Notes under the pieces: model-generated
What the model saw: only the letters and a program-made list of their open reading frames with translations
Databases searched by the model: none
What the model was told of the DNA's origin: nothing
Shown here: positions 10,267 to 33,844 of the stretch, piece by piece
How positions within the stretch are numbered: position 1 is the stretch's first letter
How the letters are laid out: the number at the start of each line of letters is the position of its first letter
Assembly (NCBI RefSeq): GCF_037392515.1
Contig: NC_090288.1
Coordinates: forward strand, 9,093,969-9,157,968
Length of the DNA: 64,000 nucleotides
Reading direction: 5' to 3'
From: Haliotis asinina
Lineage: Eukaryota > Mollusca > Gastropoda > Lepetellida > Haliotidae
Position numbers and translations under genes: made by a program

Positions 10267-10430
10267 ACTGACGGTGGGGTACCCTTGTGGTTAATGCGTT
10301 CGTTCTTCACGCCGAAGACCCGGGTTCGATGACTTACATGGGTACAATGTATGAATCCCACTTCTGGTGTCCGCCTCTATGATATTACTGAAACCTTGCT
10401 AAAAGTGGAATAAAACTAAATTCACAGTGT
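10267..10430 (+). repeat. Molluscan tRNA-derived SINE, family A
   Basis: Box A-like GTGGTTAATGCGTTCG and box B-like CCGGGTTCGATGA, then CCCACTTCTGGTGTCC, GATATTACTGAAACCTTGCT and the AAAACTAAATTCAC tail. It is nearly full length, plus orientation. Confidence 0.7.
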
Positions 10431-12805: not shown

Positions 12806-14008
12806 TCACTGTATGTCCTTGCTGCCCACAGTCAACATCAGTTGAACAATGTGACCTAGTTGTTGTAGGTCATGGGAGGGGTTGTTCTCGTCCTTAACGG
12901 GGGTCATGACATCACTGATGCCTACCTGGGTCATCATCTGTAAGTACAATATCTTGGTGATGAGATCCAAAACAATAAATACGTTAACTTTCTTTTGGTT
13001 AACATTTTTTGATTACATATGCTGAATAATATTTACGAAATACAGCAATATTGAACATTTTTTTGTCAAGAAATATACCAGGTACAAACGACACCTAGCC
13101 ACCAAATACACAAGAAATACAGACCATCATGAAGGCCTAATTTAATATGCCAGTTGAAATCTATATAAACAATGACTATGCTGTATTTATATTGCTATAA
13201 AGTACGTGTATGTACGTATGCGTACGTATGTACGTACGTCGTGGAAGAGGTTACTATTCGCTTTTTAGATTTGCGGCACGTGAGTACTTGAGGACCAAAG
13301 ATGAAGAGTTGAAATCATGTACCAGGTCTTTCAGACCTATAGCTGCTGCTAGCTGAGACTGGAATCACACTTGGCGTACACGACGTGACAGAGCGGCGCT
13401 GAACCCAACCGGCTCACTCACTACAGTATAAACAAAAATACGTACCCCTTGTTTATAGAAGATGATAACACTATCCTCGGACAGGCTTGTGCATGCGAGA
13501 TGGTGGCTGTGCATGACCTCCAGAGACCTGGTCACACTCTGGCAGACAAACAACATTTCGGTGACGTCAAGTCCTGCCAAGATGGCCACCCTCAGACTCA
13601 CAGCGCCATCTGGTACTTTCACAGCCTCAATACGTGGTGGCTGCCGACCACGATGACGTCTTCTGGAGATACGGTGACTTTCAGAGATTCGGGCTGCTGT
13701 TGGAAATAAAGACGCATTCAAGGTGTGTTTGAAAATATGTCAGGTCATTGATTCTAAGTGGTCTATACATAATTACCACAGCTGGTAAGCGCTGTAAGTC
13801 AAATGCGGATAATTATTACTTTTTGATAGTTCTTGACAAAATTGAAGTAACCATGGACAAACGTCTGAATGACCCTTATGAGATTAAGTATTACTTCTAA
13901 CATAGTTTCTGCTAAATGGTCTCAAGAGACTCAAGTAGGCCAATACTTACAGTCATTAGTTGAAAACAGGATGATGGATCTGCCACTGCCGAACACACCG
14001 GTCACAAA
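12806..14008 (-). CDS. Receptor exons 28-30: cytoplasmic tail resembling a degenerate protein kinase
   Basis: Three exons with good splice sites and agreeing phases: 14008-13951 (starts [11 protein letters not shown]), 13696-13446 and 12937-12806. The middle exon has a basic stretch ([14 protein letters not shown]), then [28 protein letters not shown] and SEDSVIIFY. This resembles the kinase segment around helix E and the catalytic loop, where LxxLHSxGIVHRDLKPENIL is usual, but the HRD and N residues are missing. The last exon has [14 protein letters not shown], similar to the region after the activation segment, and ends KDIQ-stop. No ATP-binding lobe is visible. If the resemblance is real, this is a catalytically dead remnant that could dock partners. 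The exons are well supported; the kinase likeness is inference. Confidence 0.55.
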
Positions 14009-14244
14009 CTGCAACATAATACTAGTAATGAAAATAGTGTTAGTACTGAAACCTTGGTCTCCGGAAACATGCAATCCATATTGAAAACAATACCAGCCGC
14101 ATTTTCATAGTTTATTCAACGAAGTGGATGAAATGTGACACAGTCTTAATACGGACGGACTCCAAGAAGAAACCCTCATTTAAAATCATCAGAGTCTTGC
14201 TAATGGATATCATACCAACAAAGTTCCCTACATCAAGAGGAATT

Positions 14245-14304
<60 letters not shown>

Positions 14305-17300
14305 CTTTTCCCTGAGAAGCATTGCTTGCAATTGGTGTACATCGTGTATCAAAACATAATAGGTGCGGTGCGGTGGCCAGAATAACAAAGTATCTGTTTG
14401 TGTGTCGTCTGATAGGTCAACAATGTTTGGCGGTATCGTCAAAACTACTCACCTTCCTTCTGAGGTTTGTGGAGGTTGTCGATGACAGCGTGTAGATGAG
14501 GGGGTTGAGGGCGGAGTTAATGGGCAATATAAAGGCTGCCGTCCACGTGTACACATCTCCGGGGATCATGTGACCTCGCATCGCCATCAGACCTGGCCAA
14601 AAATAAATAAGAGATAGCTATAACGTCAGCCATGTTCACACAGCGATCTTAGTACGTTGATCTCTGTTAGCCCTAGTAATAGAGTCATACGGCCTTTGCG
14701 CAAATAACCAATATTTCGATTGGCCTTTACCACCTGACCATTCAATCGTTTAATTTTAATGACCATATTTGGAATATGGAACTTGTGAAGTCTAGCGCCC
14801 AATACATGTTAAACCGCGTAGCTATTTGTCCTTAGAATCTGTCAGCATTGTAACAATTGGATGAATTCACTAAGCAGCAGCATCATGGCCATGAGAGGAA
14901 TTTACTAACCCATGCCGTATTAAACTTTGTATATTCCTATAACGGTGTGTGTCATATAATAAATATTTGAGCAATAAGGTGAAACTAAGGGTATACAATT
15001 TCGGAGGAATATTCTCGATGTAAATACTCACCCATAACACAGATTGGAAACCAGCACAGGAAGTCCGACATGACGATGACCGACAGTTTCCGGGTCAGCT
15101 GCACGTCTCCCTTCTGCACCGACACTTCCTGTCTTTCCCGGATGTCGCGGTAGATCATGGCTTGTCCAACAGCAATGATGACAAAGCAGAGGAAGTTAAA
15201 CAAGACAAATACCGCCACTGCGTATTCCCACCCTGGTGGTCTGTCTCTTGTGAGGGGAAGAGCTAGGCACACTCCAGATCGGGAGTAAAATGTCCCCTTG
15301 AAATACTTCAGAGGCAACAGCGGAAGCCCGGCAAGAACCAAGCCGCAGATCCAGGTGATGGCACAAACCGCGCCCGCCAGCTTGGAATTCTGGGCGAAGG
15401 TGGAGAAGGGAGCCTTGAGAGCGACCAGTCGGTCAATGGTGATGACACACAGGAAGATTGTGGACACCTCACTTGACAGAGTGGACAGGAAGCCAGCCAC
15501 CTGACACAGTTCGCTTTCGCGCCACCAGGTATCTTTCCAGTTGTACCATCCCCGGAAGTGGGCGTCAGCTCCAGCAATGATGAACATGTAGACGCCCATC
15601 AGGAAGTCGGAGAGGCCGAGGTTAGCGACGTAGATTCCGTTGTTTCGTTTGACTCCGGCTCTGTCAAACATCAGTCTGTAGAAAAGTACTGCTGAGTTGC
15701 CCACGAGTGCCACCGCTCCCAGCAACCACAGACTGATTCTAAGGTAGACGTTCTTCAACAAGTCAGAACAGGATGAGAACTCATCTGGCTGAGGTAGACA
15801 CTTCTCTTGGATGACACTGACTGGCCTTATACAACAAAACTCATATGCATCGGTTACAAGATCTTTCAATCCACTCAGGCCCGAAAACACCTCTCCATCA
15901 AAACGTCTAATGGCATTCATTCTCAGGTCAAGACTAGACAGATTATCAAGTCCATGGAAGGCTCCGCTCTCGATCTCACCAAGACCCATGCTGCTCAAAT
16001 TCAAACGTTTTAAGCTGGTTAAATCAGAAAATAAATTTTGTTGAAGCTTACTGAAAGACAGACCAGAAAGATCCAAGGCAGGAAGTTTCACCAGACCATT
16101 AAAAGCTCCCGGAGTGATGTATGACAACATTTTGTTCCCTCTTAAAATTAGATGTTTTAGGTTCTTTACACCCAAGAACACGTTTTCCTGGAGGGAAGTT
16201 ATCATGTTGTAACTAAGGTCCAGATATACGAGGCTGATCAGATCCACAAAGGAGGTTTTAGTCAGGTCTTGGATCCCAGAGTGAGACAAATTCATGTACA
16301 GCAGGGATTTCAAGCCTGTAAAGGAGTAATTCCCAAAGTCAGGCATGTTGATGTGGCTGACATCGAGGTTCTTCGTGTCAAGGGGAATGGTACTGACGTC
16401 ATTAGGAGAGAGGTGCTGACACCTGGTGTTCATTTCCTGTCAGGTACATCCCTCCGGACAGGTGGGGTCACAGTCGAACTCGTCGTCCCCGTTAGGACAG
16501 TGATCTGTCCCGTCACACACCTGGTCCCAGGTCAGACACGTCCCGCCATCACCACACCGGAACAGGTCAGGACAGACCCAGCTGTCTGAAACAAAATCGT
16601 TGTTTTATAGGGCTTTATATCAGCAATTATTGTTAAATGTACTCGGCGTTGATGCCCGGAAGCAGTGCGCGAATAGCTGTGGATAGTACAAATCCAGACT
16701 GGTCGGTGAATTTTCTTGAGGTCAAGTGTTTTTATGGCAATTTACATTTTTTGTAATCTACTGCCTAGGTTCTATATTCAAATTTTCGGGCTAGTGAACT
16801 ATTTTGTGGACTAGTAACATTCAGGTATGGCAAAATTTGGAAACTGTTGCGCACACTGGTCGGAACAAGATCGAAACTATGTTTACAATATATAGGGCAA
16901 ACGCATATACAAAGAAGTATCCGGTCTTGACATGGTCAGAAACAAATGTCGTTGGTGTGTAGCGACAAAGAAAGAAAATGATATGAACGCAATGAAAATC
17001 AAATTTTTCTCTCAAAAGTATGATGATAACATTCTGCTGACTGTTTTTTTTGTGAATTTCGGACTAACGGTGGTATATACTATTTACTATACGTACTAAG
17101 ACTATCTACAACATGTTTCTTGAAAGCTCCGAGAGTTACATCATTTCTCATAAATCTGTTTCAGTGATTGTTTTGTTTTGTCGTCTTGCAGGCACGACAA
17201 GAAGGGTAAAGGTCTGTTCGTCAGTGAATGATTTTGAATTACTTCCTTCTGGATTGAGACAGTATATGCAATGACGGTTTATACATCTTATAGTTATTGT

Positions 17301-20300
17301 TTTGTTTATTGGGATACATCTTTTAGGTAGATGTGGGTTAGAATTGGTCTTCAAGAACCCATGCTGGTCGTACGAGACGACTTGGTTGATGTGTGTCATT
17401 GTATCGCAACTGCGTTGATCGATGCTCATGCTATCAACCATTGGATTGTCAGATTGGGCGGAGTCTGTAATATGCTGAGTACAGAGTTAATGAAACAAAT
17501 ATAAGGATTCGTCAGGGTTTCTGTTAACGTTTTGTCCGCTTCAGGTGTCCAAGATTCACGGCGTGTAACTGATAGAACAATGTAGGTAAGGTCAGTCGGC
17601 AAATTCGATCGGTAACCCGGGACACACTTACCACATTGCTTCTCGTCGTGTCCATCCAGACAGTCACGCTGGCCGTCACAGACACGTCTCAGAGGCAGAC
17701 AGAAGCTGTCTGGACACTTCATGTAGTTCCCTGGGCACTCAAAGTCGCCTGGAGCAGACACAATTATATCTCAGGATATACCTCATAAAAACAAACACTC
17801 GACCGGATTCGAGTCCAGCGTTAAAACGACCTGTAATAGCCAACTCGAATGGAATTTCACAAACCATTGCTTTTTTATTGGCATTACTGTTTTGATGGAA
17901 TAAAGTAAGTTGTCGGTTGAGGCATCCGCATAAGCAAGCCACCGATCTTGTACACCTGTCTTGTTACAAACGTTCTAGAATGTTAAACAATGTTGTATTC
18001 TGGTGTTTGCCCCAGCAAGAACCTACCACAGTCCAGGAGGTGGGTGAGATCACGACATCCAACCACCCCGCCATGTTGATTGTAGTCCAGGACACACCTC
18101 GAGGCGACGTCGGCGGTGATGCCAGACTTACACAGCATCTGTGTCGTCGTCGTCAGCTTCTCTGAACAACAATATATCATAACTATGCTGACAGGTTCAA
18201 CGTGGGACTGACAACAACACGACATACATACACTGGAGAAGAGCTTGTCAGCCATTATTCTCAGAGACTCCGCGGTGAGCTGATGCTGATTTTATACTTT
18301 TCCTTAGGCAGTGCCTTATGTTTAGGTTGAGTCAAAGATAAGTAATAGACTGATATGTCATTTGGCTCTGATCTTATACACCAATTTCATAAATCTCCTT
18401 TAAGGACATATCCATACAAGGTGTGTAACAGGAGTGATATGTGATACCTTGCGGTATTAAATTTCTGACATGCCTTTTATAACCTATAATACTTACAATG
18501 ACATCTAGTTTCTGACATGGACATATTTTGCATAAAAAATCCTAAATAATGTACAGAAAATATAACACAAAGGAGTTAATTATATAACAGACTTTCGCCA
18601 ACTTCTGAATCTGAGACTTGACCCATATTCTGGTATTGGCTGCATTGGGTATATTTATTTCAGGGTCAGTATGACAGACTAGACGTCACTGAACGGGGAC
18701 CTACCCTCCTCACACACAAGAGGCCCCACTGTTAACCGGATGTTGCCGTACTCGTTCTCCACGCTGATGTTGACGTCGCTGACAGGTAGAAGTTGTTTGT
18801 CGACGATGTGGCCGTGGTCGTGAAGTCGTGACGTGTCAGGCAGCATGTTCCATGTTTGTTGGACGTTGACCTCACAAAAACACCTGGAGAGAGTGATAAT
18901 TTGAGCTCCTACTTCTTTCGTTTACATTCCTCCACCAAATATAGCTAGACCCCTTACATGAACAGCCAGTTCAACCCCTATCTGTAACCGCTATCAAGGC
19001 ATCCTGACATCTGTGGGGCATAATTCTGTACAGTGGTTTGTATCACGAATGCTGTGTTTTCTCAGAGAAGCTGCTGTGTTTGTTTGTGAACAAAATATTA
19101 CAGTGTGCATGGGTCGAGGAAACGTCTCGGACCGTCGATGCGGCCGTCGGAGCTAAGTTGCGTCCCTTTAGGCCTGTCCTAAGATGAAATATTGCAAAGA
19201 TGTTAGTATTGCACATCTACCCAGTTGTAAGTAAGACCCAATTCGTCCTCAGTTGGAAATGGCCGGCATAAGTCCCAACAACTAATAGTAGTCACCGGAG
19301 AGACAGAAAAAAGGATCGGTTGGGCAGGATCGTTGAATGCATGACCAGGTAGGAGGGTCTTTTCCAGTCCCGATTATTTACAAGCTGGGTCTCTCACTAG
19401 AATGACGCACAAAACAATGTTCACTCAAAGATATCATTCTGCACTCCATGCCCTCGGGCCAAACTCACCTATCGTGCCCCATGCCACAAGCATGCTCCAG
19501 TTCACAGGTACAGTTGGGCCTGGAGGCGTTGTGGAACAGGTGCCAGTCTCCATGAACGTCCCGCCACGAGATACTGCTGGACATTGTTCGGTAAACATAC
19601 TGGCAGTCTATATCCACCCTCTGACTACAGGACTGCGACTTCTGCAGGACGTACATGATACTGTCCATGGCGACGTTGTATTTCATGTGATGCTGAGCGG
19701 ATGATATCGTATCAATGACAACCGCATCTTCATGGTCGTGATGGACGACAGTCGCAACCGTGTTCCTGCTGTAGTCGAATATACACTCCACAGGGAATGT
19801 CCCTACAGTGACAAATGACATATGGACAAAAGGCATGTTGTTGGATCATATTTCAAGGACTTTGGCATTTCGGGCAGCACTTTAACCACAGCATGATACT
19901 GTAAAACCAATCCCTAAATATACGATGGTTATTGTATCACTCAGAGGCATTCCTGCTCAGCATGGCGGATGAACGTCCTTTTTATAAACATAATCTTAAT
20001 ACTTCATCCTCTAGTTGAAAATGCCATACATTCTAGTGTACTATTTTACTATACTAGTACTTGATCAGATAACGGAATAATTAGATTAGCCAAAGATCCG
20101 GGTCAGTGTAAAGCCCATTTCTGGTGTCCCCGCCATGATATAACTGGAATATTGATAAAAGCGGCGTAAAATCATGCTAACTCACTCACATTCCCTTCGC
20201 GCAACACCCGATAAAAAGGTAAAACATACAATCATTCGATACACTTGCCAATGAACCGAGTCATAAAAGTAGAATCATGTGTTTGTTTCTTTGACCCCAA

Positions 20301-23300
20301 ACTCACCTCCATCGGTATCCGTGAGGGTGTAGACACCGTTATCCCGAGCGCCCAGGGCGTACCACACTTCACAGGACGGGTGAGCCCGGACCCTGCACGT
20401 CGTCCCTTCGTCTTCGTTGTACACCCCACCGCAGTCGATGTAGCCGTCACAGACACTGTCTTCATGGATGCAGAGTCCGTCGTAACACTGGAACGCTGGA
20501 GCGGGGCACACGTCTGGAATTAAGTCAATAATGCATTGTCATCCATAAAGTCGAATGTCTCTGTTTTGACTAACCTGCTTCTAGAAGCACTGGGCAGGAC
20601 AAGCTCACCTTTCAGACAGAGGTGGCATTTTAAGAGATTCATAATCACATGATCATGTTGTAGTTGGAATCGTACAGAAGACACTGCTATTGTCACACAG
20701 GATATGAAACCGGCTTGCCACTTTTGTTTAGTTCTTGGAACTAAGTAGAGGATTGCCACAATAATTACCACAGTTGTCCTCGTCAGAGCCATCTCGACAC
20801 TGGACGCTGAGGTCACAGCGGTCAGACCAGGGGACGCACTGGCCATTGGTGCACATCCACTCATCAGCATCACAGGCCCTGGACTCTAGAATATTGAGGG
20901 TGTGAGCCATAAAATATAACAGATTTTATTGTATTAGAGGGAAAATTTCCAATCCACAATTATTTTTGAGTAACATGATACAAAAAAAACAACACATGTT
21001 CGGATTCGTGTCATGAGTAGCTGCACTTACAGTCTATTATAGAAACAAAGATGTTTACTGTCTTCAACTTGAATTTATGATATTTACCACATTCTCTCTC
21101 ATCTGATTGGTCCCCACAATCATCTCTGTAGTCACACAGCAAGGTGAAGGCCACACAGCGGCCATTGGCACATTTAAAACGCGATGGGCAAGACACGTCT
21201 GAAATGGAATCCGAGGCTAGAAGTTGGAACAATGTCATCGATGGCTGTATTGGTTAACTGCGTTTCGTGTGTGGTTGTGGGTGGGGTTTTAAACTTAGGA
21301 TTGATAATATTACGTATCTGTCGTTAGCTTCCTGGGAGGCACTTGACCTTGGCCAGACGTAATGATGAAATGATGATACGAGGGGATGTCAATAAGTTTT
21401 GAGCCTTGAGCATTTTTAATACCAAAATGTCACAGCCTATGGTACGACATTGAACCTTGGGGTGTAGCTGATGTGATATATAAGTTTTGGTATCCTACTC
21501 TCAGACGTTATTGAACTGCTCACATTGACAGAAAGAGACCCCCCCTCACGGCAGTGAAAATGAATAAAATTGAGTATAGAGCAGTAATTAAGTTTTTAGT
21601 TCTTGAAGGAAAATCGGCAAAGAACATTGAAGAAAGGCTTTCAGCAGTTTATGGGAAGTCTTCCCCTTCATCTGCTACTATCAAACGATGGGTCAATGAA
21701 ATTAAGCATGGTAGAGAGAGTCTTGAAGATGATCCCCGTCCAGGTCGCCCAACAACAAGCACTAGTCAGGAAAACACTGACAGAGTGCATAGACTTGTGC
21801 TGGAAAATCGTCGAATCACACTCCACGAGTTAGAGGAGACCACAGGCATTTCACACGGATCCATCGAGACAATTCTTCATGAACATCTCGCCATGTCTAA
21901 GGTGTGCGCATGATGGGTGCCAAGAATGCTTACAGATGAAATGAAGCAAACAAGGGTCACCATAATCAACTCCATGCTAACCAGATACAACAAGAATCCA
22001 GAAGATTTCACTTTAGGCTAGTAACCTGTGATGAAACCTGGATCCACCACTATGATCCTGAGAACAAACAAGAATCCATGGAGTGGAAACATGTCACTTC
22101 TCCCAGGACCAAAAAGTTCAAAGCCTCCAGATCAGTGCAGAAGGTAATGGCGACAGTCTTCTGGGATAGCAAAGGCGTCATCCACATAGATTACTTAGCA
22201 AAAGGAAGAACAGTGAATGGGGAATATTATGCTAACTTGTTGAGGCAAGTGCGATAGTCAATCAAGGAGAAGCGCCGGGACAAGATCTGACGTGGTATTC
22301 TTCTACATCAAGACAATGCTCCAGTACACGCCTCTCGCGTTGCAGCCGTTGCTGTCCAGGAATGCGGGTACGAAATCTTGCCGCATCCCCCCTACTCTCC
22401 AGACCTGGCACCAAGTGATTACCATCTGTTCCCAAATCTCAAGAAACACTTGCGTGGTCGTACATTTCAGGATGATAATGACCTTATTGCTGCAACTGAG
22501 ACTTGGTTTGAGGACCAAAATGGCGCCTTCTACAGAGATGGCATCAGCGCCTGGCAGAAAAGATGGAACAAGTGTCTTGACTCACAACTTGACTATGTTG
22601 AAAAATAAATGTGGTTCATACCAATATTTTGTGCTTTTCTATGCAAGGCTCAAAACGTATTGACATCCCCTCGTATTAAGTGATTTCACAATGAGGTTAA
22701 ATGCGCGCACATACACTGTCAGGTTCATGACTTGTGGTTGGTTACTTGTACTTCTCCAGATTTGTATTTCCAGAGATGACACGCTACAGTTTAACCTGGA
22801 TAGCCTAGTCAGACATATTTCTTCCCCACGGCACAGACGCTCACGTGGTAAGATTGTACACTATACCCCAAGTTTTGTCAAACTATGTATCTGTTCTCTG
22901 TCAAGTATTGGGTTGCCATATGATGAATGCATAGTTTTACCACAATCTCGCTCATCGCTGCCATCTGTACAATCCGTCCGTCCGTCACACCACCGTACCC
23001 GGGAGATGTGCTCGGTGTTGTCGCACCGGAAGTAGTACCCATACCTCTGCGCAGTCGCATTGAACATCACAGCCCGCACGGCTACATCAGGAACTGAAGA
23101 GTTAATAAGGTAGCCATAAACATTATGCCAGTATATATTCATTTGGAATATTGACTGAATAGTCCTAAAAATATCAAGAAAGCTATTGAACTATGGAATA
23201 ACCAAGCCCCAAAACGTGGTGACTTGAGTTTCAATTGTTATGCAAAGGTGCAGGAGAGCGGAATTATCTGTATAACCTTTACGGAACTGCCAAAATAATA

Positions 23301-26300
23301 GCGAAATATTTTAATTGGCAACAGGCTAGCATGGGTATGACAGTATTCTAAATTACCCTACCGTAAACGGTTATATGACGCTAAACACATTGCGTACGAT
23401 CCATCATTGCGCGTACCTGGGTCCACCTGGGTCTGGGGCATCTCACAAACATATTGCTGGACCCTATCGAAGGCGCACATGACGTCGTGCCAGATGGCCG
23501 TGTTCCTGACGTCCGACATCCTCAGCATCACACACAACTCTCCATCACCACCATCTGGCTGGGATACCTGGGTCTCGGGGTCAAGGTACCTGTGTTATAG
23601 CAGAGGTTCTCAACAAACTCTTTCAGAAACCCCAAACGAAGTGTGTTGAAATAAAAAAAAATGAGTGGGGACTTCTGGCACAGAAGGACGCCACCAAGAG
23701 CGCCGGAAACATGTGCAACAGTTGTGTCTCTCTAGCGTACCAGAATCCTGGATCGTTGAATATCAGAATTCTCTCTGCTAAAACAGATCCTCACATCCTG
23801 ATCCTTGATATGTTAGCGCCATAAAGTACCCGTGGATAAAATGGCGAACGTCTGAGAGTGGAATCATTTGGCATTTTTGTACCACATTACGTTAGCTGAC
23901 ACACTGTTGTGTAACGGACATATTGTTCAAAATGGCGTTAAGATACACTCACTTCATTGATGCATTGCTATACTGCCTCTTACCAGTCGGTGTAAGTCAA
24001 AGCTTCACCGCTCGTCCACTTAAAGCCTCTTGTCCTCTTCTTCCTCAAACCTAAAAGGAATCATGTTCATTAAATAACTATGATAATTTTTAACAGCTGA
24101 TACTGGTGCTTGTGATTATATATATTGTTTCCTTTCATGGACATATCTCCTAAAACCGTAACGTCATTATCTCGAGGACAATGTTATTTGTGTCTGTAAG
24201 ATGGCAAACACGATACAAACATGAATTAGCGTATCCACGATCACAGTGAACAATTGGTGATCCCGTTAGAATTTCAAGAGAACACTCCTACCGAGAAAGC
24301 AAACAGAAAGTACTCTTAATATGGCAGATGTACACACTTTAAACGGAAACACAAACACAAATAACAAACAATACATAATATGCGCATCGGAATAATAAAA
24401 ACACAATCAAGCGTCAGGCAAGAAGCTTTGTACGCTTCCTTCTGACAAAACGTGACCGATGCAAACCCATGTAAGACTCTTTCTGACTGGGGGCTGTTGG
24501 GTAACCTGGTGACTAAAGCCGTTCGCACTCCTTCTGGAGGACCTTGACTCACACCTACCCATGTGAACTTCTCTCTGACGAATTGTCACTGACAGTTCCC
24601 AAAGAAAGATTCTGTGACCTGTGACCGACACCTACCTATGTAAGCTTCTTTCTTGCGGACAGTCTGTGACATAAACATCATAGTGTGGATGTACTGCATC
24701 TCGCTGGAACTACTGATACTGACAAGGTGGCCGCCGTGTCCAACACATTTGTCTTCTGCCTCGGACCAGGTCAAACCGGTTTGTTCTTGTTTGAACTGGT
24801 AGCAATGCCCGTTAAAAGCTCGAAAACCAGGCTTGCACTCTGAGGACGCAAGAGGCCAGTGAATATCAAGAAACAGTTCAATCTCTTCACAAGCGGTCCT
24901 AATACGACGGTTTAAAGCCTGTTGTGAAACTGAAGTTCTCTGCGATGCACGGATTATCAGAGTTTACGCAAGTTCAGGAACTAGCGTGTTAATACATAGG
25001 TGATATGTTACACATTTTCAACATCCAAACATCATCAAAATATTTATATAAAATATATACCGGTGAAATATATTAACTATGTGGTAGTTCTTACCATAGA
25101 TAGACAATCTGATCCTGAATCCAGCAAGACTCGACACTCGTGACATTCTCATACACGACCTAAGAGTCACCTTGACCTTATTGGTTAAGGAAATGACCTC
25201 TGACCTCCGATAACTGGATGCGTTTTTCCCAGTGACCACGAAGAGAACATCCTTGGTTTCCAGGTCATCCTGCACAACTAGGGCGTCCTCGCAGTCGGCG
25301 TTCAGGGCTTCGTAGGCTCCAACCTGTTCGACAAGGAAGATAGAAATGCATTGAGGATGGAGACTGTTTGGGCTTGACGCTGTGATGAACAGTATTACAC
25401 GTACAGGGAGAAACATGAGAAATCTTGGATTTGAATCCATGGTCAGGCTTCAGTCTCACCAGATTGGGTCACCTAACACACCTTTGACATCTATGTTCCC
25501 TCTCAGTTTTGGAGATCGGCCAACTACCTTTGGAAGATCAAAACCATGGAAGCATGACTAGATATGTTGGTCCTTCCCATCACCTGAAGCATATCGACTG
25601 GCAGTTTCGTATGAGAAGCCATTTCACTCCTCGCACATTGAGGTATTTGGGATTTAAGGACACCAGTTTTCCCGTCTTTGCCCAAAACACTTTTAGATTT
25701 TCATTGTGCTGAAATAGCCAGGAAGGGACAACAGAGTATATCGGGTTCTCTAGGGAAGTACCTGCATGGACCGTCCTTCCTTCTTTGGGAGTGTTAGGTT
25801 CAGTATCTCCAGCTTGACTTGAGTCTGGGCGGGGAAGTCCACGTCCCACACGCAGTGTAGTCCTTCACCATAGTAGAAGGGGAAACGCGGAGAAGTTATC
25901 TCCCCTGCTTCTTTCACTTCCGTGTAACACCCTTCCTCAGACTGAATTTCTGTTACATTTGGAAATCAATACAAGCGGTATTTTTCGTTTAATTAGCTCA
26001 TTACAAACAAAACATCTTTGTCTGTTTGTCAACTGGTATTCGACAAAGTCTTATCTTTAACAAACGAGTCTCGAATAGGAAGACCAGTGTTTGATATTAT
26101 AAACAGACCCCAACCTGTCATGATGCGATTACAAGTACTTATACGTCATCGAACCTTGTCATACATCCATATGTTGCTTGGATTACTGGAGATTTACATT
26201 AACCCGAAATCCCCACTGGGATCAAGATTTATGTTGCTTTTATTTTAAAATATACAAAACTTAGTTTCAGTTGACAAAAATGCCGTAATAACTAAAACAT

Positions 26301-29300
26301 TTTAACACAGACTGGCTGACTTTTTGCCAACATTCAAATCTATCAAAGCAAATGCAAAATTATTTAAAAAAATAAAAAAAAGATCTGTGAAAACAAATCA
26401 GTGATACTTATGTATACATGCATATTAATTTCAGTCATAGATTTCTTGCAGATTAAACCTTGCGTCGGACATCCAGTAAGCTCCAGCTTGACGCATGCCT
26501 GTCCTTGAAGACGTATCCTGATAATTCTTGCAAATATAGCCTCGACAAACAGGAAACTTTGTGGAAAATCTGGAGCTGAGGATAGGTCAAGATGGAAAGT
26601 CTGAAAAATCAAGGAGAGTCAATGAGCTCGCCGTTACCGGTTTTGAACATTACTGAGTTATATCACAATGTGCCATTAAAGCCCTAAGGTGATGCAGGTT
26701 ATAGCTGTTTAGCCCTTTGGTAGAACCCACATGCATTGGTATGTGCCCTGACAAACCCGAAAATCGGCTCGGGTGGTACGTGTGACAAATTCTACGATCA
26801 TAGACTTTGCCATATCAAAGGGAGAGAACTCTGCGTAGAGTTTATTGGAGTCATTTAGAATCTGCCAATGTTTCACTGAAAGGAAGAAACACTGATAACA
26901 GTTTCTAGGACTGTAGCGATCTTTGGGGATACTCATAGAAATCATCTGTTTACCATGGCCGCACCATTGGGTCTAACTGTAGGGTCGAGGGTTCATCAGC
27001 ACTCTACTGGTTGAGGTGTATAAAACTGGATCTGGTCATCAGACCTCGATGTCAGTCCCAGCGGCGTTGGATGTCAACCTTATTATCACGTATGGATATA
27101 CAACTGGAATCTTTAGCAGAGCCACGGCTCCATGGAATGTACTTCCATGGGATGTCAGCAACATCAGGTCTTCAAAAGAGATTTGATCTCTTGCTCTTAA
27201 GCAGTAAAACTATGGTTATGTTATTAATTTATTATCAGTAACTATTGTTCTATAAAGTTTTTGAAAGGCAATTAGATATTCGAATGACATAAATGCTTGG
27301 CACCTTTCTTAACGACTTCTATCAGGACGTTTCAGAGCTAATTCTTGTTCCTCCATCGACATTCGCCTGACTACACTATTCCATTGTGATGACAGTATTA
27401 GACAGTTCCTGTTTTCACTTCATTGATGCCCAGACATATTTACCCTGGCGTTACCTCGGGCGTCCAAATACGGGGTAAGCTTGTCTGGAATCTGGCCGTA
27501 CATCACCGTGAAGGAGTCGGCCATCTTGGGATCACCCCCGACATCTGTCCAACCCTGGACGACCACGCCCTGCACAATAACGCCTGTCAGCAGGTCCACC
27601 TGTGGGTCATTAGCAGGCCATTATCTATATGCAAATTGTGGAGGGGATGAGAATGATTGTAAGATACATTCACTCTGCTGGACTCCAATGGACCTCCTGA
27701 GAGCTCCTTGTTGGTCCTATGAAATGTGTACCCTCCTTTTATAGAAGGACGGTCAAGTGGCGGTTGTGGAGTGTTTGTAAACACTAGACTTTCACTAGAC
27801 GTCATGAAATGGTCTTTCGTCGCTTTTAAGAAGTAAATTTATCATCATATCTTGAGCGGTGAAAGTGTTTTTAACCGAAATTTCTCCTTGTTTTCTTACT
27901 GCTTATAGAACACATGGCGCACCTGTTTTGTCAAATATTGCATTGATTAGTATCGTTTATTCCTGATATTCCTATTTGCGATACAGAAACACACACGTCT
28001 AGATTGTTTTTAATCATATAATGTCAGTCTTCAATAATCATCATGAGACATAACTGAAGTACATCAGAAACTGCGAAGGAATAAAGTCACTGAGTAACCG
28101 CTGATACATGTTTTTTTTCTGCCGCAGATTTACATATTTCTCTGGTTTGGATCAGTACAGGTAACACTCGTATGTCTTGCTATATATTTGTATTGTTTGT
28201 TGCTAAGGTCGTATTAAAAAATATCCCACCATCAGTGTTCTATAAAGATTATTGATATTGTCAGCAAGCACCAGCACATTTTGATGGCGGAATTAGTCAA
28301 GCTGGATCACAAAGGGGCGGGAACAGGTGTACAAACCACACACCCACCTGTATATACGGGTCAGGGTCAGTGTCGGACGCGCACCACCCTGAGGCAAGGT
28401 TAAGTCGAGCATGGTGAGGTGACATGGAGTCAGACGCGGCTGATGAAGAAACAATCTGGTCATCTTGAATCACCCCGGAGAGCATCCCCATCGGCAACCC
28501 ACAGGGCAGAGCTGGAATATATTCAGTCAGATGTACTGATGTATGTAATTCATATGTTTTATCGGTTTAGATTGGTACAGTATTACAGTGGGGATCCGTT
28601 TTAATGTCTCAGCTCAAACATTTCTTTTGTAGCTGACTGTTCATACTAAACATACGATTACGATTAATATAAGGATGGGTGATTTGTTTAGTCAACTAAA
28701 CATTATCTTGAAGGAACTTTTTTAAAAAAAATATTCCAAATCCTATTGAAAAACATGTGCCGCCAGTGGGATTCGAACCCGCATTCTTTGATTTAAGGTC
28801 TAAGTGAGTATAAAGCACAGCTACAGCGACACATGACAACGTGTGGGGACTCGTCCCATTAGCATTAAAGACTAGAGAGACACTAGGATTTGAATAAAGA
28901 AAACCAAACACACCTTTAGCTCTTATTTTGACTTCAGACAGTTCAAAAATGAATCCTGGTTCGTGGTCACGTCCCGGGTGAGAAGCTACATTATTTTGTA
29001 TGGTCACGTACTGTCCGGTAAGTGGCCGGACGCACTCAAACCGGTACACGTTGTTCCGACCCAGGTTCACGGGTCCCTCACAGACAGGGGAGCCAGACGT
29101 GAGGAAGTCCCACTGTCGGACACTGACATAGGTCATCACGTGTCGGGCGTTGTAGGGCTTCTCCTCTGGAACAGAATACACAGAGTAACGAATATTTAAA
29201 AGGCAGTAAGCGAATATGGATTTAGGCCGCGTTTTTACCACAATTACTGGAATGTCACAGCTGAAGGTACAAGAAACAGGCCTCACACACTGCACCCATC

Positions 29301-32300
29301 CGGGGAGACACTTTAATCGGTTATTGTTCAGCCGCTTAAAAGATAGACTTTACTTCATAAGAAGAACTTACAGTGATTGATGAGGATGATATCTTCATTG
29401 AGACATCTGGTAGAGAGTGTTGACCCCGGAAACGATGCCTCTTTTTCAAATATTCCTATTTGTGGCAAAACGGTGGAATTCATTTTAATACACTCAGACA
29501 CACGCAACTGACGTGGCCAGACACAATGTTGAAGGCGCGAGTCATAGATCATTGGTTACACCCACCTTCAGCTCTGACTATGATGACTGCCTGTACCAGG
29601 AAATGTCTCTGCAGGTCCACCTGCAGCCAGGGCTCAACCAGACCTGGCACTGCAGCAAAGGACGCAGGGCCTACAAGGGAAAGATGTGTGTACCGTAACT
29701 ACGTTAGTGTCATCGCAGTTATCACTAAACATTGCCATTACACCTTGTTGTTCACGTCACACTGTCACTAAACATGTGAATCTGCAGGAATCTGTAACAC
29801 TGACATCTCACCTTCTGGGTCGGCCATACAAGCGTTGACATTTATAAGGTACCAGTCACAGTCCATTCCTGAAAGACAAAACACACATGAAATACAGGAA
29901 AATGACTAAAATTCCATTTAAAAACGAACAAGAATGTATCTATAAAACAAATCTCTTCAGTACTTACTAATTCTTCCATCCAATGCATTTCCAGTGGAAT
30001 TTCCTTTGGCGGACTGGGACGATCTTGCAGCCTTCTTGAGAGCAACATTGGGTAATTCTCCGGAAACATCTGCAATTGATATCAACAAAACAGAATTCAG
30101 AGCATAAGCCATTATTCTAGATAATCAGAGAGTTTGAGTACAAGTTCCCAGGGAACCATGCTACCCAAGCCATTGTCTTGCCAATCCGGCTTAACAGGCT
30201 TATACAACACCCAGAATGGGACATACAGCAGGAAACATGATTTTACAAGGACAAACTTATACGTATACACACAATGTCTCTCCGTTAAATCTCATAGTTA
30301 AGTTTTTTTGTTAAGAGAATATTATGTTCAGTCTCTACATCCTCGCTACTCACAGATGATAAAAGGTGATACAACAGTGAGTTGATCAATATTCTATCAA
30401 TATCTGAACAGAGGACTCCAGAAAGTGGCTTAGCACACTGTAGATGTAGACAGAATGACACAAAACACATACCACAGAGCGGCACAGAGACACAGAACGC
30501 CATAGTTGTCTGGTGTTTACAGACGAGGTAACGCCAGTTCCACGCCCCCTTGCGGCAGTAGTTCTCCTCCAAGTCCCCCATGATGTAGTCGGTGTCGGTG
30601 GAGGGCCAGCCGTTGTTGGCCCAGTATTCACACTCGTACCCCAAGTTATGAACATTGTGACGACCTCTATAGGAAGAACCTAGGTCCTCAAAGAAAGCGC
30701 ATTCTCTCCGCTCTGCAAACGGAGATAGGTATAAGTGTGACTTGTTTCAGGGCATTGACTGGTCAACATTGGTTTGATACAGAAACTCACTTTTATCAAA
30801 GCAAAGACAAATGGGACGGAAAGTCGGAATACTGATTGAGTTGACAGTTTAATTTTGAAGTGAAGCAAATCGTCTAATGCTACTGATCACACTCACACAA
30901 ATTGGTCTTATATACTAGCGTCATATACTACCTAAAGTTTATACTCACTCGTGTAAATGTAGCCACTTACGTCAATCAACTACTTTAAAATAGATTTTGC
31001 AAAACAATCCATACTGTTTAACAGTACTGCTTACTGTTTGCGGTACTGCTGCTGATGTATTGTAAAACAAATTCGTAAGGTTGAAAAGATATTGTCATGG
31101 GTTCAATAAATGAGGAAATTGACATATAGTGAATGGATTAAGGGAGTCTAAACTTTTGATGGGCAGTATATACACAAGAATGAATGGTTTTTATTTTTGT
31201 CTTCTATACAGGGTTCCTCCTTTACTTATTGAAATATGGACATAGCATTATTTGACATATGTATTCACATACCGTATGGCTTGTAGAAGCAGAGGTGAAG
31301 CGCCAGAGTGTTGTTCCCACGTGGCACCAGATCTTCATGGGACGAGTCTGATGAGTGGATAAAGACAAATGTTTCCTCCAAGACCTCTGTGCCATTCACC
31401 GACTGGCAAACAGCCTGTGAGTGGGGCTGGGACAATCAGAACGCAACCATTTGTATATCTGCATGGTGGGTTACCAAGGTAACATTGCACTGACATTGAA
31501 GGATATCATTATGGAATAAATTTTTGAAGGCTGGGAAAATTTGATATAAACTCCAGTTCAAGAATTTTGATATCGACGTACATGCACACGTGCATGTATG
31601 TGTGTCGGCCTCCACAATGCCCGTCTGTGCTAGGCCAAGCTAAGGCAAGTTTTTACGTGCTGGTCCACCAAATTTCAGTATGACAAAAGTACTGTCAGAT
31701 AAGGCCAAACTGTCGTGTCATTAAGTATTCTTCAGGATTTTCTAAGTAGAAAATTACTTTCCATGTAAAATATCTCAAGCTTGAAAGAAAAATTCTCTTA
31801 CGCTATTTCTAAATGCCATTAATGAGGGCAAATATATTTCAGAGTGTTAAGTTATTAATTTCCTGAGTCGAATGCCCTGGTCACCATGGCGATTTCAGGT
31901 GCTTCGATCAGCTCACGATCAGAGTATTCAGACCCTCTGTTCTTTCAGGCAATGTAATACGTGATTAGCTGGTTAAACTTTCGGATCTGTAGCTACCAAT
32001 ACTCCAGGGACGCGAATGTCCACATCAGAGATTAAACTCAATGACCTCAACATGTAATGAATGTGCTGATGCAGATGGCTTACCTTGATTAGGTAAAATG
32101 GGAAGATGAAAGGAAGGGATACGCTTGAATTTGAATCTTCATCCGACCGGCAACACAAGGTCACCATGACCTCATTTTCATTAACCCTCATATTTGGCAC
32201 TTCACCTTCAATGTCATCATTGATGATTGCGTAATCTTTCAGTGTCAGGTTGAAGGTACTGAATTCTGAAAAACAACAATTTTGTCAGATTTCTAATATT

Positions 32301-33844
32301 CAAATTAAAATCATATGGAAGTGGTATGCCAAATGAAAAAGTATATTTTAATTAGATTCCAATTTGATAATAATTTTATAATACAAACAGATTGATTCCA
32401 GCTTTATCACAACCACCTTAACTAATAGAGTCTTAAGTTTGTTTTTAATGCCACACTTAGTATTACTTCAGTGTTATGACGACTGTCTCCGCATAATCGA
32501 ATCTGCGACAGCCAGGCTAATGATCGACATCATGACCATCAATCTGTGCTGAAAATATTGGAACAAAAATCTCTTGTCATGACGTCAAAACAGAGAATAC
32601 TGATTATCTATACAATTATGCACCCATACCTGATGGACAGTCAGCGTCACCTTGAAAGATACAGTAATGACCTTGCGGCCAAACATTTGATAAAGTGCTG
32701 TTTTCTGTGACGTTGAGAGTCTGGCCAGTTTCATTGTCAAGGTCATCTGATCTCATGCAAAAATTCAGCTGGATTGTATAGAGATGATATGGTCCAAGCA
32801 AGTGCAGGCTGTCGGACCAATCATGGTTGGATGACCTTGACCCTGTATAGGTCAAATTGACGTGACCCGTTTTCCATCCATATTCTGATGCTTCCGGACA
32901 ACCATAGACAGTAGACAGTAGACCATACTTCCCTTTCGGCCACGGGGATGCTTTTCGTTCTAGAAGAATTAGTGAATTACAATTTAACATCTATTAGGCG
33001 CAGTGGCTTAAGTGCCCGCGCTGTAAGCTAACGTCGGCGTGTCAATATCGAAAGGCATTATGGGATATTATTGTTTCGCTGTCTTGGAAGAATCAAAGCG
33101 ATAAAATGAAGACTCTTGTTTCACAGAACAGTGCACTGCAGTTAAATCTAACTCGAATGTTCCACTAGTTTCATTTCGTTAAAACCGTAATTCGTCATAA
33201 GCATACAGACAAAAACGCAGGGCTCAAGGCTGGAAATAAATTTATTGTAAATATAGTTCACTGTCCTGTACTGTTTTCTGGAGAACTGGCAAAATTCAAA
33301 CCACTTCAAACCAATCAGTTTCTGGGATGATATGATATGAATCATAGGATGATATGAATGTGTTATAGTGCAACACGTTACTCTTTATACTTTCCGTGTT
33401 GGCTTTGACTAAAAGTATTACAATTAAATCTCTGTCTTATTGGGGAAAACGTGATACTATGCGGGTTTTAGACGTTAATCACTTTATAGAACCGTTTCAC
33501 TGGGCTGAAAATGACATATAATCAAGGTAAACAGGGTTCGAATCCTCGATAAATGGATCCTAGCAGTCCTTAGGAACACGCATCTGCCACGCGGTCGGTG
33601 TTATAATAAATGTTATTATAATTTCGTTACACACCTGTGATTTTCCAAAACAGTATGTTTATCTAATACTTATGAATATTAAAAAGTAGGAAGCATGGCA
33701 CCTTTAAACTTTTACCCGTACCTGTAGTCACCAAATTAAATAGAATTCCAGCCACTTACCTGAAACATCGTCACTCTGGACAAGAAAGGCAATGACGACC
33801 AGCAGGGTCACACGAAGCGCCATGTTGCAGGACATTGCGGCCAT
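12806..33844 (-). CDS. ApeC/kringle/lectin/LDLa/LRR seven-transmembrane receptor, 30 exons
   Basis: Exons in transcription order: 33844-33760, 32959-32630, 32265-32084, 31414-31273, 30712-30473, 30069-29968, 29868-29812, 29670-29566, 29165-28914, 28511-28348, 27599-27444, 26600-26459, 25949-25762, 25323-25095, 24839-24636, 24050-23984, 23589-23417, 23093-22941, 21198-21088, 20885-20769, 20513-20307, 19802-19469, 18883-18705, 18161-18027, 17748-17632, 16585-15032, 14592-14453, 14008-13951, 13696-13446, 12937-12806. The sum is 6,306 nt (2,101 residues plus stop) and every junction keeps frame. The protein should enter the secretory pathway and sit in the plasma membrane with a very long ectodomain. 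The 7TM part is of the LGR type C/GRL101 kind, so G-protein signalling is expected from the family. The ligand is unknown. One in-frame TGA at 16440-16442 interrupts the model. Domain calls are by eye; the last three exons are the least certain. Confidence 0.8.
14246..14305. repeat. (GCAC)15 microsatellite
   Basis: Sixty bp of perfect GCAC tetranucleotide repeat in the intron between the TM7 exon and the first cytoplasmic-tail exon of the receptor. Long open frames on both strands here are only the repeat. Confidence 0.95.
14453..14592 (-). CDS. Receptor exon 27: third extracellular loop and TM7
   Basis: This 140-nt exon joins exon 26 through a split glycine codon. It starts [17 protein letters not shown], continues [18 protein letters not shown] and ends in a basic NLRRK. 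The NPLIY sequence is the class A NPxxY motif of TM7. LRRK marks the start of helix 8 or the tail. The acceptor (TTTTTGGCCAG) and donor (GTGAGTAGT) are clear. The exon ends in phase 0, which matches the next candidate exon at 14008. Confidence 0.85.
15032..16585 (-). CDS. Receptor exon 26: LDLa module 7, leucine-rich repeats and TM1-TM6
   Basis: This large exon begins with LDLa module 7 ([19 protein letters not shown], then [10 protein letters not shown]) and the CPEGC start of a leucine-rich-repeat cap. An in-frame TGA follows at 16440-16442. The same frame then runs open for 470 codons. About seven leucine-rich repeats follow (for example [17 protein letters not shown] and [12 protein letters not shown]), then a cysteine hinge (YEFCC) and the transmembrane helices. 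TM1 has GNSAV, TM2 [15 protein letters not shown]3 SEVSTIFLC followed by IDRL in place of DRY, and TM6 [17 protein letters not shown]. The [12 protein letters not shown] and LSSEVS motifs fit LGR type C receptors (RXFP, GRL101). The exon ends at a good donor, GTGAGTATT. Confidence 0.85.
16440..16442 (-). other. In-frame TGA between LDLa module 7 and the leucine-rich repeats
   Basis: The minus strand reads TGT ACC TGA CAG GAA ATG. The frame is fixed on both sides by LDLa7 upstream and by the leucine-rich repeats and 7TM downstream, with no shift between them. By analogy with other leucine-rich-repeat N-caps (a pattern like CPEGCxC), the stop occupies the place where a cysteine codon (TGC or TGT) would be expected, so one base change would explain it. 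No intron fits here. If translated as written, the product would be a soluble ectodomain of 1,438 residues. Confidence 0.8.
17632..18161 (-). CDS. Receptor exons 24-25: divergent LDLa module 5 and LDLa module 6
   Basis: The exon 18161-18027 encodes a divergent LDLa-like module ([19 protein letters not shown], then [11 protein letters not shown]) in which the usual acidic SDE box is replaced by [11 protein letters not shown]. The exon 17748-17632 is a standard LDLa ([15 protein letters not shown], then [11 protein letters not shown]). Both are phase 1-1. Together they cover about residues 1307-1390. The RDLTHL variant may no longer bind calcium in the canonical way. Module 6 keeps a DGHDE calcium box. 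Confidence 0.75.
18705..18883 (-). CDS. Receptor exon 23: cysteine-containing linker of unknown fold
   Basis: This 179-nt exon codes about residues 1248-1306. It starts [14 protein letters not shown], contains a [15 protein letters not shown] stretch and ends GPLVCEEE. Clean splice sites and matching phases on both sides (phase 2 in, phase 1 out) show that it is a real exon. It probably completes the fibrinogen-related region, because the CFCEV start follows directly from the CTCELEHAC end of the previous exon. I do not recognise a named domain. Confidence 0.7.
19469..20513 (-). CDS. Receptor exons 21-22: LDLa module 4 and neurexin-IV-like fibrinogen-related domain
   Basis: The exon 20513-20307 carries an LDLa module ([13 protein letters not shown], then [10 protein letters not shown]) and runs into [20 protein letters not shown], the start of a fibrinogen-related fold. 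The exon 19802-19469 continues with [20 protein letters not shown], a HHDHEDA segment, [19 protein letters not shown] and a CTCELEHAC end. The order C-E-W, G-V-Y-T, F-V-C-D, T-V-V-H-H, then a Y(N/D).(S/A)M motif followed by a cysteine, matches the C-terminal fibrinogen-like region of neurexin IV and contactin-associated proteins rather than a full ficolin domain. It covers about residues 1067-1247. The assignment is by motif order only. Confidence 0.65.
20090..20192 (+). repeat. Family A SINE, 3' part, in a receptor intron
   Basis: AAGCCCATTTCTGGTGTCCC, GATATAACTGGAATATTGAT, AAAAGCGGCGTAAAATCATG and CTAACTCACTCAC match the 3' body of the family. It lies in the intron between LDLa4 and the fibrinogen-related exon. 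Confidence 0.65.
20769..23093 (-). CDS. Receptor exons 18-20: LDL-receptor class A modules 1-3
   Basis: Three exons, each one LDLa module, all phase 1-1: 23093-22941 (contains [19 protein letters not shown] and [11 protein letters not shown]), 21198-21088 ([13 protein letters not shown], then [11 protein letters not shown]) and 20885-20769 ([16 protein letters not shown], then [10 protein letters not shown]). The acidic DGSDE calcium box is intact in modules 1 and 3 and present as DQSDE in module 2. Together they cover about residues 940-1066. A mariner element has inserted in the intron between the first and second of these exons. LDLa modules are typical of GRL101 and relaxin receptors, where they support ligand-driven activation. 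Confidence 0.85.
21377..22675 (+). mobile_element. mariner DNA transposon with terminal inverted repeats
   Basis: Both ends carry an inverted repeat of about 30 bp beginning TACGAGGGGATGTCAATA, at 21377-21410 and, inverted, 22642-22675, with only a few mismatches. The ends include TA, consistent with the TA target duplication of the Tc1/mariner superfamily. The 1.3-kb length is typical. It lies in the receptor intron between the first and second LDLa exons, in the opposite orientation to the gene. The well-matched ends and few coding breaks suggest a fairly recent insertion. Confidence 0.9.
21560..22608 (+). pseudogene. mariner transposase, inactivated
   Basis: The N-terminal helix-turn-helix part is open (starts [14 protein letters not shown], includes [14 protein letters not shown] and [13 protein letters not shown]), then ends at TGA 21911-21913, where CGA (arginine) would be expected, a CpG-type change. 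Downstream pieces retain the catalytic regions: [25 protein letters not shown] and [18 protein letters not shown], the D..D34D signature. At least one frameshift near 22015 and further stops near 22256 and 22288 break the frame. As read here, the copy cannot make transposase. It is a plain mariner and not a host-domesticated gene. Confidence 0.88.
23417..24839 (-). CDS. Receptor exons 15-17: C-type lectin domain
   Basis: Three exons (24839-24636, 24050-23984, 23589-23417), about residues 792-939. The start [50 protein letters not shown] and a closing W.DV.C...QQYVCE are typical. The region of the calcium/sugar site reads [10 protein letters not shown] and lacks a clear EPN or QPD..WND tandem, so sugar specificity is uncertain. 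This domain is absent from the paralogue and lies after the point where the two genes diverge. Beyond the first exon's donor at 24635 lie degenerate copies of the exon end (see the repeat at 24410-24660). Confidence 0.82.
24410..24660. repeat. Degenerate tandem copies of the C-type-lectin exon end and its donor
   Basis: The exon end CTTACATAG with donor GTAGGTGTCGG (24619-24660) is echoed at about 24541-24585 (CACATGG, GTAGGTGTGAG), 24455-24490 (CTTACATGG, GTTTGCATCGG) and about 24412-24450 (AAGCGTACAAAGC). Spacing is about 80 bp. The second copy has an intact-looking donor, but splicing to it would add 77 nt including a stop. Mutational decay increases away from the exon. Confidence 0.6.
25095..25949 (-). 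CDS. Receptor exons 13-14: CUB domain
   Basis: Two exons (25949-25762, 25323-25095), about residues 653-791. The first half shows [20 protein letters not shown] followed by a [12 protein letters not shown] strand. The second half has [10 protein letters not shown], the [13 protein letters not shown] segment and the closing GFRIRLSIY strand, as in CUB domains. The intron falls in phase 0 at the same place as in the first CUB domain of the paralogue, and the GEGLHCVW motif is identical. CUB domains usually mediate protein-protein or calcium-dependent contacts. I did not identify a complete calcium site. Confidence 0.82.
26459..28511 (-). CDS. Receptor exons 10-12: F5/8 type C (discoidin) domain
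   Basis: Three exons (28511-28348, 27599-27444, 26600-26459), about residues 499-652. The domain opens with [20 protein letters not shown], has the HARLNL..GWCA and DPYIQVDLL motifs, a central VQGVVVQGW and SFTVMYG stretch, and closes with FARIIRI...CVKLELTGC. This is the complete discoidin pattern of cell-surface and coagulation proteins, which bind lipids, collagens or sugars. The two internal introns are phase 0, as in the paralogue. The last donor is unusual (GTTTAATC), but the frame joins correctly to the CUB exon. Confidence 0.85.
28914..30069 (-). CDS. Receptor exons 6-9: fucolectin-like galactose-binding domain
   Basis: Four exons (30069-29968, 29868-29812, 29670-29566, 29165-28914), about residues 327-498. 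The first has the [13 protein letters not shown] start and an ALDG motif, followed by [28 protein letters not shown] and a closing [10 protein letters not shown] strand. This is the fucolectin/F-type lectin arrangement, a beta sandwich related to F5/8 type C. All introns are phase 1. I cannot place the complete sugar-coordinating triad of F-type lectins with confidence, so sugar binding is likely from the fold rather than shown. The same set is present in the paralogue, except that the 57-nt second exon has no clear counterpart there. Confidence 0.75.
30473..30712 (-). CDS. Receptor exon 5: kringle domain
   Basis: A single exon of 240 nt, phase 1 at both ends, coding about residues 247-326. 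It carries the kringle pattern: [11 protein letters not shown], then [22 protein letters not shown], a W..LVC pair and a final VPLC, giving six cysteines with kringle-like spacing. Kringles are protein- or glycan-binding modules of extracellular proteins. The symmetrical phase 1-1 exon makes it an ideal unit for exon shuffling, and the same exon recurs in the neighbouring gene. The SYRGR and DLE(E/D)NYCRKG segments are kept between the two copies. Confidence 0.85.
31273..32959 (-). CDS. Receptor exons 2-4: ApeC (apextrin C-terminal) domain
   Basis: Three exons (32959-32630, 32265-32084, 31414-31273), about residues 29-246. Family hallmarks are visible: a WPKGKYGLL start followed by a GCP motif, a LNFCMR segment, WPQGHYCIF followed by CP, the TLCCRSDE double-cysteine motif, the LPF..PFYLIK segment, and a C-terminal CFYKPY. 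ApeC domains occur in apextrins and related proteins of invertebrates, and some amphioxus members bind bacterial wall components. Here the domain is the N-terminal module of a membrane receptor. The third exon is shorter at its start than the paralogue's (AVCQSV against AHFDHDCQRV), so one face of the domain differs. Binding to microbial ligands is inference. Confidence 0.82.
32436..32560 (+). repeat. Diverged family B SINE-like copy in a receptor intron
   Basis: Retains GCATAATCGAATCTGCGACA, GATCGACATCATGACCATCA and the preceding (C)ACTTAGTATTACTTCAGTG block. It lies in the intron between the first and second ApeC exons. Strong divergence marks an old copy. Confidence 0.5.
33760..33844 (-). 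CDS. Receptor exon 1: signal peptide
   Basis: The first coding exon starts at the ATG at 33844 and encodes 28 residues, beginning [12 protein letters not shown] and continuing with a hydrophobic LLVVIAFLV core and a likely cleavage site near QSDD. A later in-frame ATG eight codons downstream would give a more compact signal peptide and could be the true start. The exon ends in phase 1 at a good donor (GTAAGTGG). The next exon begins directly with the ApeC domain; the EGF module found at this place in the paralogue is absent here. Confidence 0.75.

Follow-up and report, generated by a model that had tools for sequence, protein, structure and literature searches.

A candidate type-C LGR with an N-terminal ApeC-kringle-discoidin-CUB block, interrupted by an in-frame TGA, in Haliotis asinina

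We analysed a window of 64,000 nt from Haliotis asinina (NC_090288.1, assembly GCF_037392515.1; all coordinates below are positions in this window) and describe on its minus strand a gene, here called gene B, which probably encodes a type-C (GRL101/relaxin-receptor-like) leucine-rich repeat-containing G protein-coupled receptor (LGR) with an N-terminal block of ApeC, kringle, two F5/8 and CUB domains. This assignment is drawn from the DNA sequence. As sequenced, the chain is interrupted by an in-frame TGA ahead of the seven-transmembrane (7TM) core, and a tandem paralogue, called A, sits upstream on the same strand and carries a related ApeC-to-CUB block. A preliminary description of this DNA had outlined the receptor; it mentioned neither the TGA, nor the lack of a clean C-terminal tail, nor paralogue A.

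Gene B was predicted with a home-made gene finder, whose splice-site frequencies were general animal values, followed by curation by eye. The model has 27 exons running from 33844 to 14453 (Table 1). All 26 junctions are GT-AG and compatible with one phase, giving 1,961 codons in total, and every intron is at least 99 bp long. These codons contain a single in-frame stop versus about 111 expected at the gene's own intronic stop rate, so the openness of the frame is not due to chance. The preliminary description had proposed thirty exons joined in consistent phases into about 2,101 codons; the phase agreement holds over our 27 exons, whereas the larger counts were not reproduced, and an intact receptor of 2,101 codons fails on the given sequence because of the TGA at 16442-16440, codon 1,445.

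The predicted protein consists, in order, of a signal peptide, ApeC, kringle, two F5/8 domains, CUB, a C-type lectin, six LDLa modules, an LRR block and the 7TM core. The ApeC match scores 119 bits against a curated Pfam cut-off of 26.5, and exons 2 to 4 hold eight cysteines by a count made by eye rather than from a position-by-position alignment; both are features of ApeC-containing proteins. The kringle, which falls below its Pfam cut-off, is helped by paralogue A, whose corresponding exon is 44% identical and matches plasminogen kringles at 4.3e-10. An AlphaFold2 model of the kringle built from two sequences had a mean pLDDT of 51 and was not used. A hidden Markov model check recovered nearly the whole stack of modules named in the preliminary description (ApeC, kringle, both F5/8 domains, CUB, C-type lectin, LDLa, LRR and 7tm_1). 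The remaining label, "fibrinogen-like", had been given to the linker of exons 21 to 24, which matched nothing in Pfam at E<=10 or in the PDB at E<=1, and it was dropped.

The C-terminal half bears out the class A, LGR-type core that had been proposed. Among the best 60 of 465 PDB matches to the LRR-7TM exons, human RXFP1 (PDB 7tmw) comes first, at 4.1e-70, followed by LGR4, LHR, TSHR and FSHR interspersed with LRR proteins. A type C LGR has a class A core nearest to the relaxin/LGR receptors, as found here (7tm_1, 4.2e-27), and an LRR block directly ahead of TM1, which in gene B lies in the same exon (LRR_8, 2.2e-28). The several LDLa modules of the C2 subtype are also present: gene B has six, the sixth of which (E=0.0023) is below the Pfam cut-off. 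The core retains NPLIY and a further 12-residue motif that the preliminary description had named. Neither a GPS/GAIN domain nor 7tm_2, the marks of an adhesion G protein-coupled receptor (GPCR), appeared at E<=0.1 in the Pfam scan. RXFP1 has one LDLa. Unlike gene B, the human receptor has no lectin block.

Table 1. Predicted features of gene B and its paralogue (minus strand; Pfam E-values for gene B are whole-segment values).
Feature	Position	Strand	Evidence or remark
Gene B exon 1 (28 residues): start codon, signal peptide	33760..33844	-	ATG, hydrophobic core, donor 8.3, phase 1
Gene B exons 2-4: ApeC, 8 cysteines	31273..32959	-	PF16977 E=3.3e-34, profile 1-208 of 208
Gene B exon 5: kringle, single exon, six cysteines	30473..30712	-	PF00051 E=1.8e-5 (under the Pfam cut-off)
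Gene B exons 6-9: fucolectin/F5-8-type domain 1	28914..30069	-	PF00754 E=3.7e-5 (under the Pfam cut-off)
Gene B exons 10-12: F5/8 type C (discoidin) domain 2	26459..28511	-	PF00754 E=1.7e-9
Gene B exons 13-14: CUB	25095..25949	-	PF00431 E=1.8e-6
Gene B exons 15-17: C-type lectin	23417..24839	-	PF00059 (Lectin_C) E=1.3e-13
Gene B exons 18-21: LDLa 1-4	20307..23093	-	PF00057 segment E=2.7e-33, five stretches including exon 25; stretches assigned to exons by eye
Gene B, exon 21 (end) to exon 24: linker with cysteines	18027..20307	-	Unmatched in Pfam (E<=10) and in the PDB (E<=1)
Gene B exon 25: LDLa 5	17632..17748	-	Pfam LDLa stretch, exon assigned by eye
Gene B exon 26: LDLa 6, LRR block, hinge, TM1 to TM6	15032..16585	-	LRR_8 2.2e-28, 7tm_1 4.2e-27, RXFP1 4.1e-70
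84-nt in-frame GT...AG stretch enclosing the TGA	16437..16520	-	Donor 5.7, acceptor 0.2; intron in one gene-finder run
In-frame TGA, codon 1,445 of gene B	16440..16442	-	Linker from LDLa 6 to LRR block
Gene B exon 27: TM7 region, including NPLIY	14453..14592	-	Exon curation and Pfam
Possible cytoplasmic-tail exons of gene B	12806..13740	-	Two frames apparently weakly coding, one after the other; no Pfam match
Tandem paralogue A: signal peptide, EGF-like, ApeC, kringle, F5/8 x2, PAN, CUB x2, stop	35896..51328	-	Pfam and homologous exons

That the two halves of gene B form one gene, rather than two, seems to us a good deal more probable than the reverse. The intron joining CUB to the lectin is 255 bp long and runs from phase 1 to phase 1 (donor 4.3, acceptor 3.6); it contains no AATAAA or ATTAAA and no ATG opening a signal-peptide-like exon. 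In a boundary scan, which compares places within the gene and yields no independent probability, forcing a gene boundary lowered the model score at 24 of the 26 introns, and a split at the CUB-to-lectin intron was 14.3 bits worse than the joined model, the fourth worst of the 26. The reference for these scores was a joined path of 35 exons, not the 27 of the model, with both halves allowed to share the intron; the codon model had been trained on the same exons, and splice thresholds were lowered to admit the weak donor of exon 12. Moreover, a first gene-finder run that kept the TGA placed ApeC exons 3 and 4, kringle, F5/8, CUB, lectin and LDLa in one gene ending at that stop, although it lacked further exons, including the main one for ApeC, and spliced CUB to lectin at different sites. 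The phase match taken by itself is weak evidence, since exons encoding extracellular modules are often phase 1.

Several observations weigh against a single, working receptor gene. The chain as sequenced ends after 1,444 codons, ahead of the LRR block and the 7TM core, and beyond 13740 a weak coding signal switches frame within one exon (13740-12806); no single clean frame was obtained for the tail, from 14453 to 12806. The donor of exon 12 is the weakest of the chain, at -3.3. In the boundary scan, splits after exon 12 and after exon 18, whose intron measures 1,724 bp, scored 1.9 and 1.2 bits better than the joined model, and one after exon 22, among the 24 worse introns, was a near tie (-0.2 bits). 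Intron 12 contains an AATAAA, as do 9 of the 26 introns of gene B, and a signal-peptide-like open reading frame (ORF) at 25440/25416 is in frame with the second CUB exon; it would start in the middle of the CUB domain. Finally, paralogue A is a case of the ApeC-to-CUB block existing without a receptor.

Some of these points could be explained if two genes lay side by side, the first for a secreted ApeC-kringle-F5/8(-CUB) protein resembling A and the second for a lectin-LDLa-LRR-7TM receptor like the GRL101-like genes of Biomphalaria, with the phase match a by-product of phase-1 extracellular modules. Paralogue A is just such a receptor-less protein, the receptor half taken alone fits a published architecture (PMC12297450), the scan slightly favours a split at introns 12 and 18, and phase 1 is so common in these modules that agreement in phase proves little. 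We nevertheless regard two genes as unlikely. The 255-bp CUB-lectin gap lacks both a signal-peptide-like exon and a polyadenylation signal, and the signal-peptide-like ATG ORFs of introns 12 and 18 have no phase-1 donor except the one at 22092, whose donor scores 1.2 and whose hydrophobic stretch includes an Arg. In addition, A's terminal CUB exon has no copy in B by tblastn.

Paralogue A offers a direct comparison for the front end of gene B. Its own ApeC match reaches E=1.1e-26 in Pfam; three of its other matches (EGF-like, kringle, first F5/8) fall below the curated cut-offs. Twelve exon pairs could be aligned across exons 2 to 14 of gene B, exon 7 (1 of the 13 exons of the block) being omitted since no frame could be assigned to its counterpart in A. 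They contain no stops, and 348 of the 726 aligned residues (48%) are identical. Over these 726 codons the proportion of nonsynonymous differences (pN) is 0.36 versus 0.74 for synonymous ones (pS), with synonymous divergence (dS) saturated; judged by these substitutions, the ApeC-to-CUB block common to A and B is under purifying selection. The CUB exon of A that matches B ends in the same phase as in B and seemingly continues into another module, which also favours one gene over two in B. By tblastn, A's EGF, PAN and terminal CUB have no copy in B, A has no copy of the 7TM core, and the 64-kb window holds no other 7TM or ApeC copies, paralogue A aside.

Two further observations concern paralogue A itself. 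At 44797-45021 (minus strand), exons of its first F5/8 domain cannot be joined in phase, which may reflect a lesion, a missed micro-exon or a base error; since one of these exons cannot be framed with its neighbours, the integrity of A is also uncertain. Inside A, before the PAN exon, lies a 75-bp copy of the second CUB exon of gene B (40664-40738, minus strand), with 83% DNA identity to 25255-25329. At the protein level this copy is 78% identical to B over 23 residues, whereas A's own CUB exon is only 44% identical to B, which suggests a recent exchange between A and B.

The in-frame TGA stands in the way of reading gene B as a working receptor gene in this haplotype, in which no open frame extends from the start codon to TM7. 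Since translation halts at codon 1,445, the product of this copy would be either a secreted, receptor-less ectodomain or degraded. We think that gene B was built as a receptor and that the TGA marks a null allele, a loss of recent date or an error in one base. A stronger version, in which gene B was once a receptor and is now a dead pseudogene, and in which the TGA, the lack of one clean frame in the tail and the poor donor of exon 12 would be early decay, is compatible with the one-gene reading, so that the odds of the two overlap. The stop lies in frame, two frames of the tail exon look weakly coding, one after the other, and exon 12 has a poor donor, as a decaying gene would have it. Even so, there is one stop in 1,961 codons, the 7TM motifs are intact and all 26 junctions are GT-AG, so that death, if any, must be very recent; moreover, a single-base assembly error would produce an identical TGA. 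On balance we find a pseudogene a serious alternative that is still on the doubtful side.

Other explanations of the stop found little in their favour. The Cys-rich stretch around it resembles an LRR N-cap in its pattern, a likeness that no search bore out. The idea that the TGA replaces a conserved cysteine of such a cap lacked proof: a short PDB search was uninformative, a lax Pfam scan came back without an LRR N-cap family, and in a longer PDB search on the region, considering the best 60 of 86 matches, the top five alignments do not span the TGA. Reading the TGA as selenocysteine had no SECIS support, an Rfam scan at gathering thresholds being empty across the window.

A last possibility is that the 84-nt GT-AG stretch enclosing the TGA is an optional intron, whose retention would yield a soluble multi-lectin protein and whose removal would yield a membrane receptor. 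Its length is divisible by three, its donor scores 5.7, and one gene-finder run used it. However, it codes for the second half of LDLa 6, so that splicing it out would disrupt both this module and the LRR cap; its acceptor is weak (0.2), and it is shorter than any of the 26 introns of the model (84 nt versus at least 99 bp). Because half of LDLa 6 is encoded there, the stretch at 16437..16520 is probably exon, and we regard optional splicing as very improbable.

Downstream of TM7, an AATAAA at 12650 lies beyond the possible tail exons. A pseudokinase-like tail, with a degenerate kinase lobe, was considered and dropped, Pfam being empty at E<=10. Right after the TM7 exon lies a CGCA repeat of 15 copies (14245-14305), which the gene finder mistook for coding sequence.

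The receptor half of gene B belongs to a kind already published, and it is the ApeC-kringle-discoidin-CUB front end that seems new among the matches listed in the open-licence PMC literature. In the SudRes2 region of Biomphalaria sudanica, 10 of 14 genes carry C-type lectin, LDLa, LRR and a class A 7TM core, and RNA aligned to 11 of the 12 predicted GRL101 coding sequences (PMC12297450). Like gene B, these GRL101-like receptors have the C-type lectin N-terminal to LDLa, LRR and 7TM; as described, they have no ApeC, kringle, F5/8 or CUB, and the term "CUB" is absent from the main text (PMC12297450). The Lymnaea GRL101/type C2 LGRs share with gene B several LDLa modules (twelve in Lymnaea), LRR and a relaxin-receptor-like 7TM core, but their ectodomain is described as LRR and LDLa only (PMC8286064, PMC4079206), and descriptions of GRL101 elsewhere likewise give ectodomains of LDLa and LRR (PMC8286064, PMC4079206, PMC6267866).

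The modules of the front end are also found together in other settings. Mollusc ApeC proteins of groups 8 and 9 share ApeC with gene B, group 8 occurring in gastropods and bivalves; the main text of that survey, as distinct from its figures and supplementary tables, does not mention GPCR, transmembrane, CUB, kringle or LDLa (PMC9585378). The limpet mucus protein P-vulgata_14 is a single gastropod protein that unites ApeC, CUB, kringle and C-type lectin modules, as gene B does, but is secreted, includes peptidase M12A, sushi and ShKT domains, and is listed with no 7TM (PMC7333891). In amphioxus, ACP5 joins CUB to ApeC (PMC8361754), and adhesion GPCRs place kringle, C-type lectin, CUB, LDLa and discoidin on 7TM receptors (PMC2246102). 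The latter, however, are of the adhesion class with a GPS, whereas gene B has 7tm_1 and no GPS match. Among the matches listed in the open-licence PMC literature, we found no ApeC on any GPCR, nor ApeC, kringle, discoidin and CUB together on a GRL101-type receptor; the available text of PMC11521371 and PMC12716839 contained nothing further on ApeC. The earlier statement that no receptor with such modules had been described stands for ApeC among these matches and is too broad for the other parts, because lectin-LDLa-LRR-7TM receptors (PMC12297450) and the amphioxus adhesion GPCRs (PMC2246102) have been published.

Elsewhere in the window, a relative of MCM3AP/GANP has predicted exons at 55446-60712 (minus strand; PF16769, 1.1e-25 and 6.3e-21); it lies upstream of A and B and is useful for synteny. 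A 42-bp tandem repeat of 11 copies (58471-58932) sits amid its exons. Copies of a dispersed repeat at 10272-10425, 51028-51185, 52781-52941 and 20100-20189, pairwise about 78-80% identical, would by size be like short interspersed elements. No tRNAs were found in the window.

Judging from what is known of these protein families, the design of gene B is most likely that of a glycan- or microbe-sensing type-C LGR. Peptidoglycan binding by ApeC has been demonstrated in both amphioxus and molluscs (PMC9585378), and in RXFP1, as described, the effect of a bound ligand is transmitted to the 7TM core through the LDLa and LRR modules. In gene B, a single transcript would span 33.8 to about 12.8 kb, its ApeC and lectin modules would bind microbial or glycan surfaces, and the LDLa and LRR modules may relay this binding to the 7TM core and switch a G protein, as with the RXFP1 ligand. 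A more specific scheme, a pattern-recognition GPCR in which the ApeC and lectin modules, on binding peptidoglycan or glycans, directly gate the 7TM core while the TGA stop can also free a soluble multi-lectin ectodomain, seems to us quite improbable.

GRL101-like receptors are treated in the papers cited here as having no settled ligand, insulin-like peptides having been proposed (PMC8286064), and in a snail genome a cluster of lectin-bearing members lies within a region associated with resistance to schistosomes (PMC12297450). A GRL101-like member carrying the peptidoglycan-binding ApeC would offer a concrete class of ligands to test (PMC9585378). The receptor-less neighbour A would show how a secreted protein and a receptor can have a recognition block in common, and the locus, if it is one gene, could enable cells to sense microbes directly by way of G proteins.
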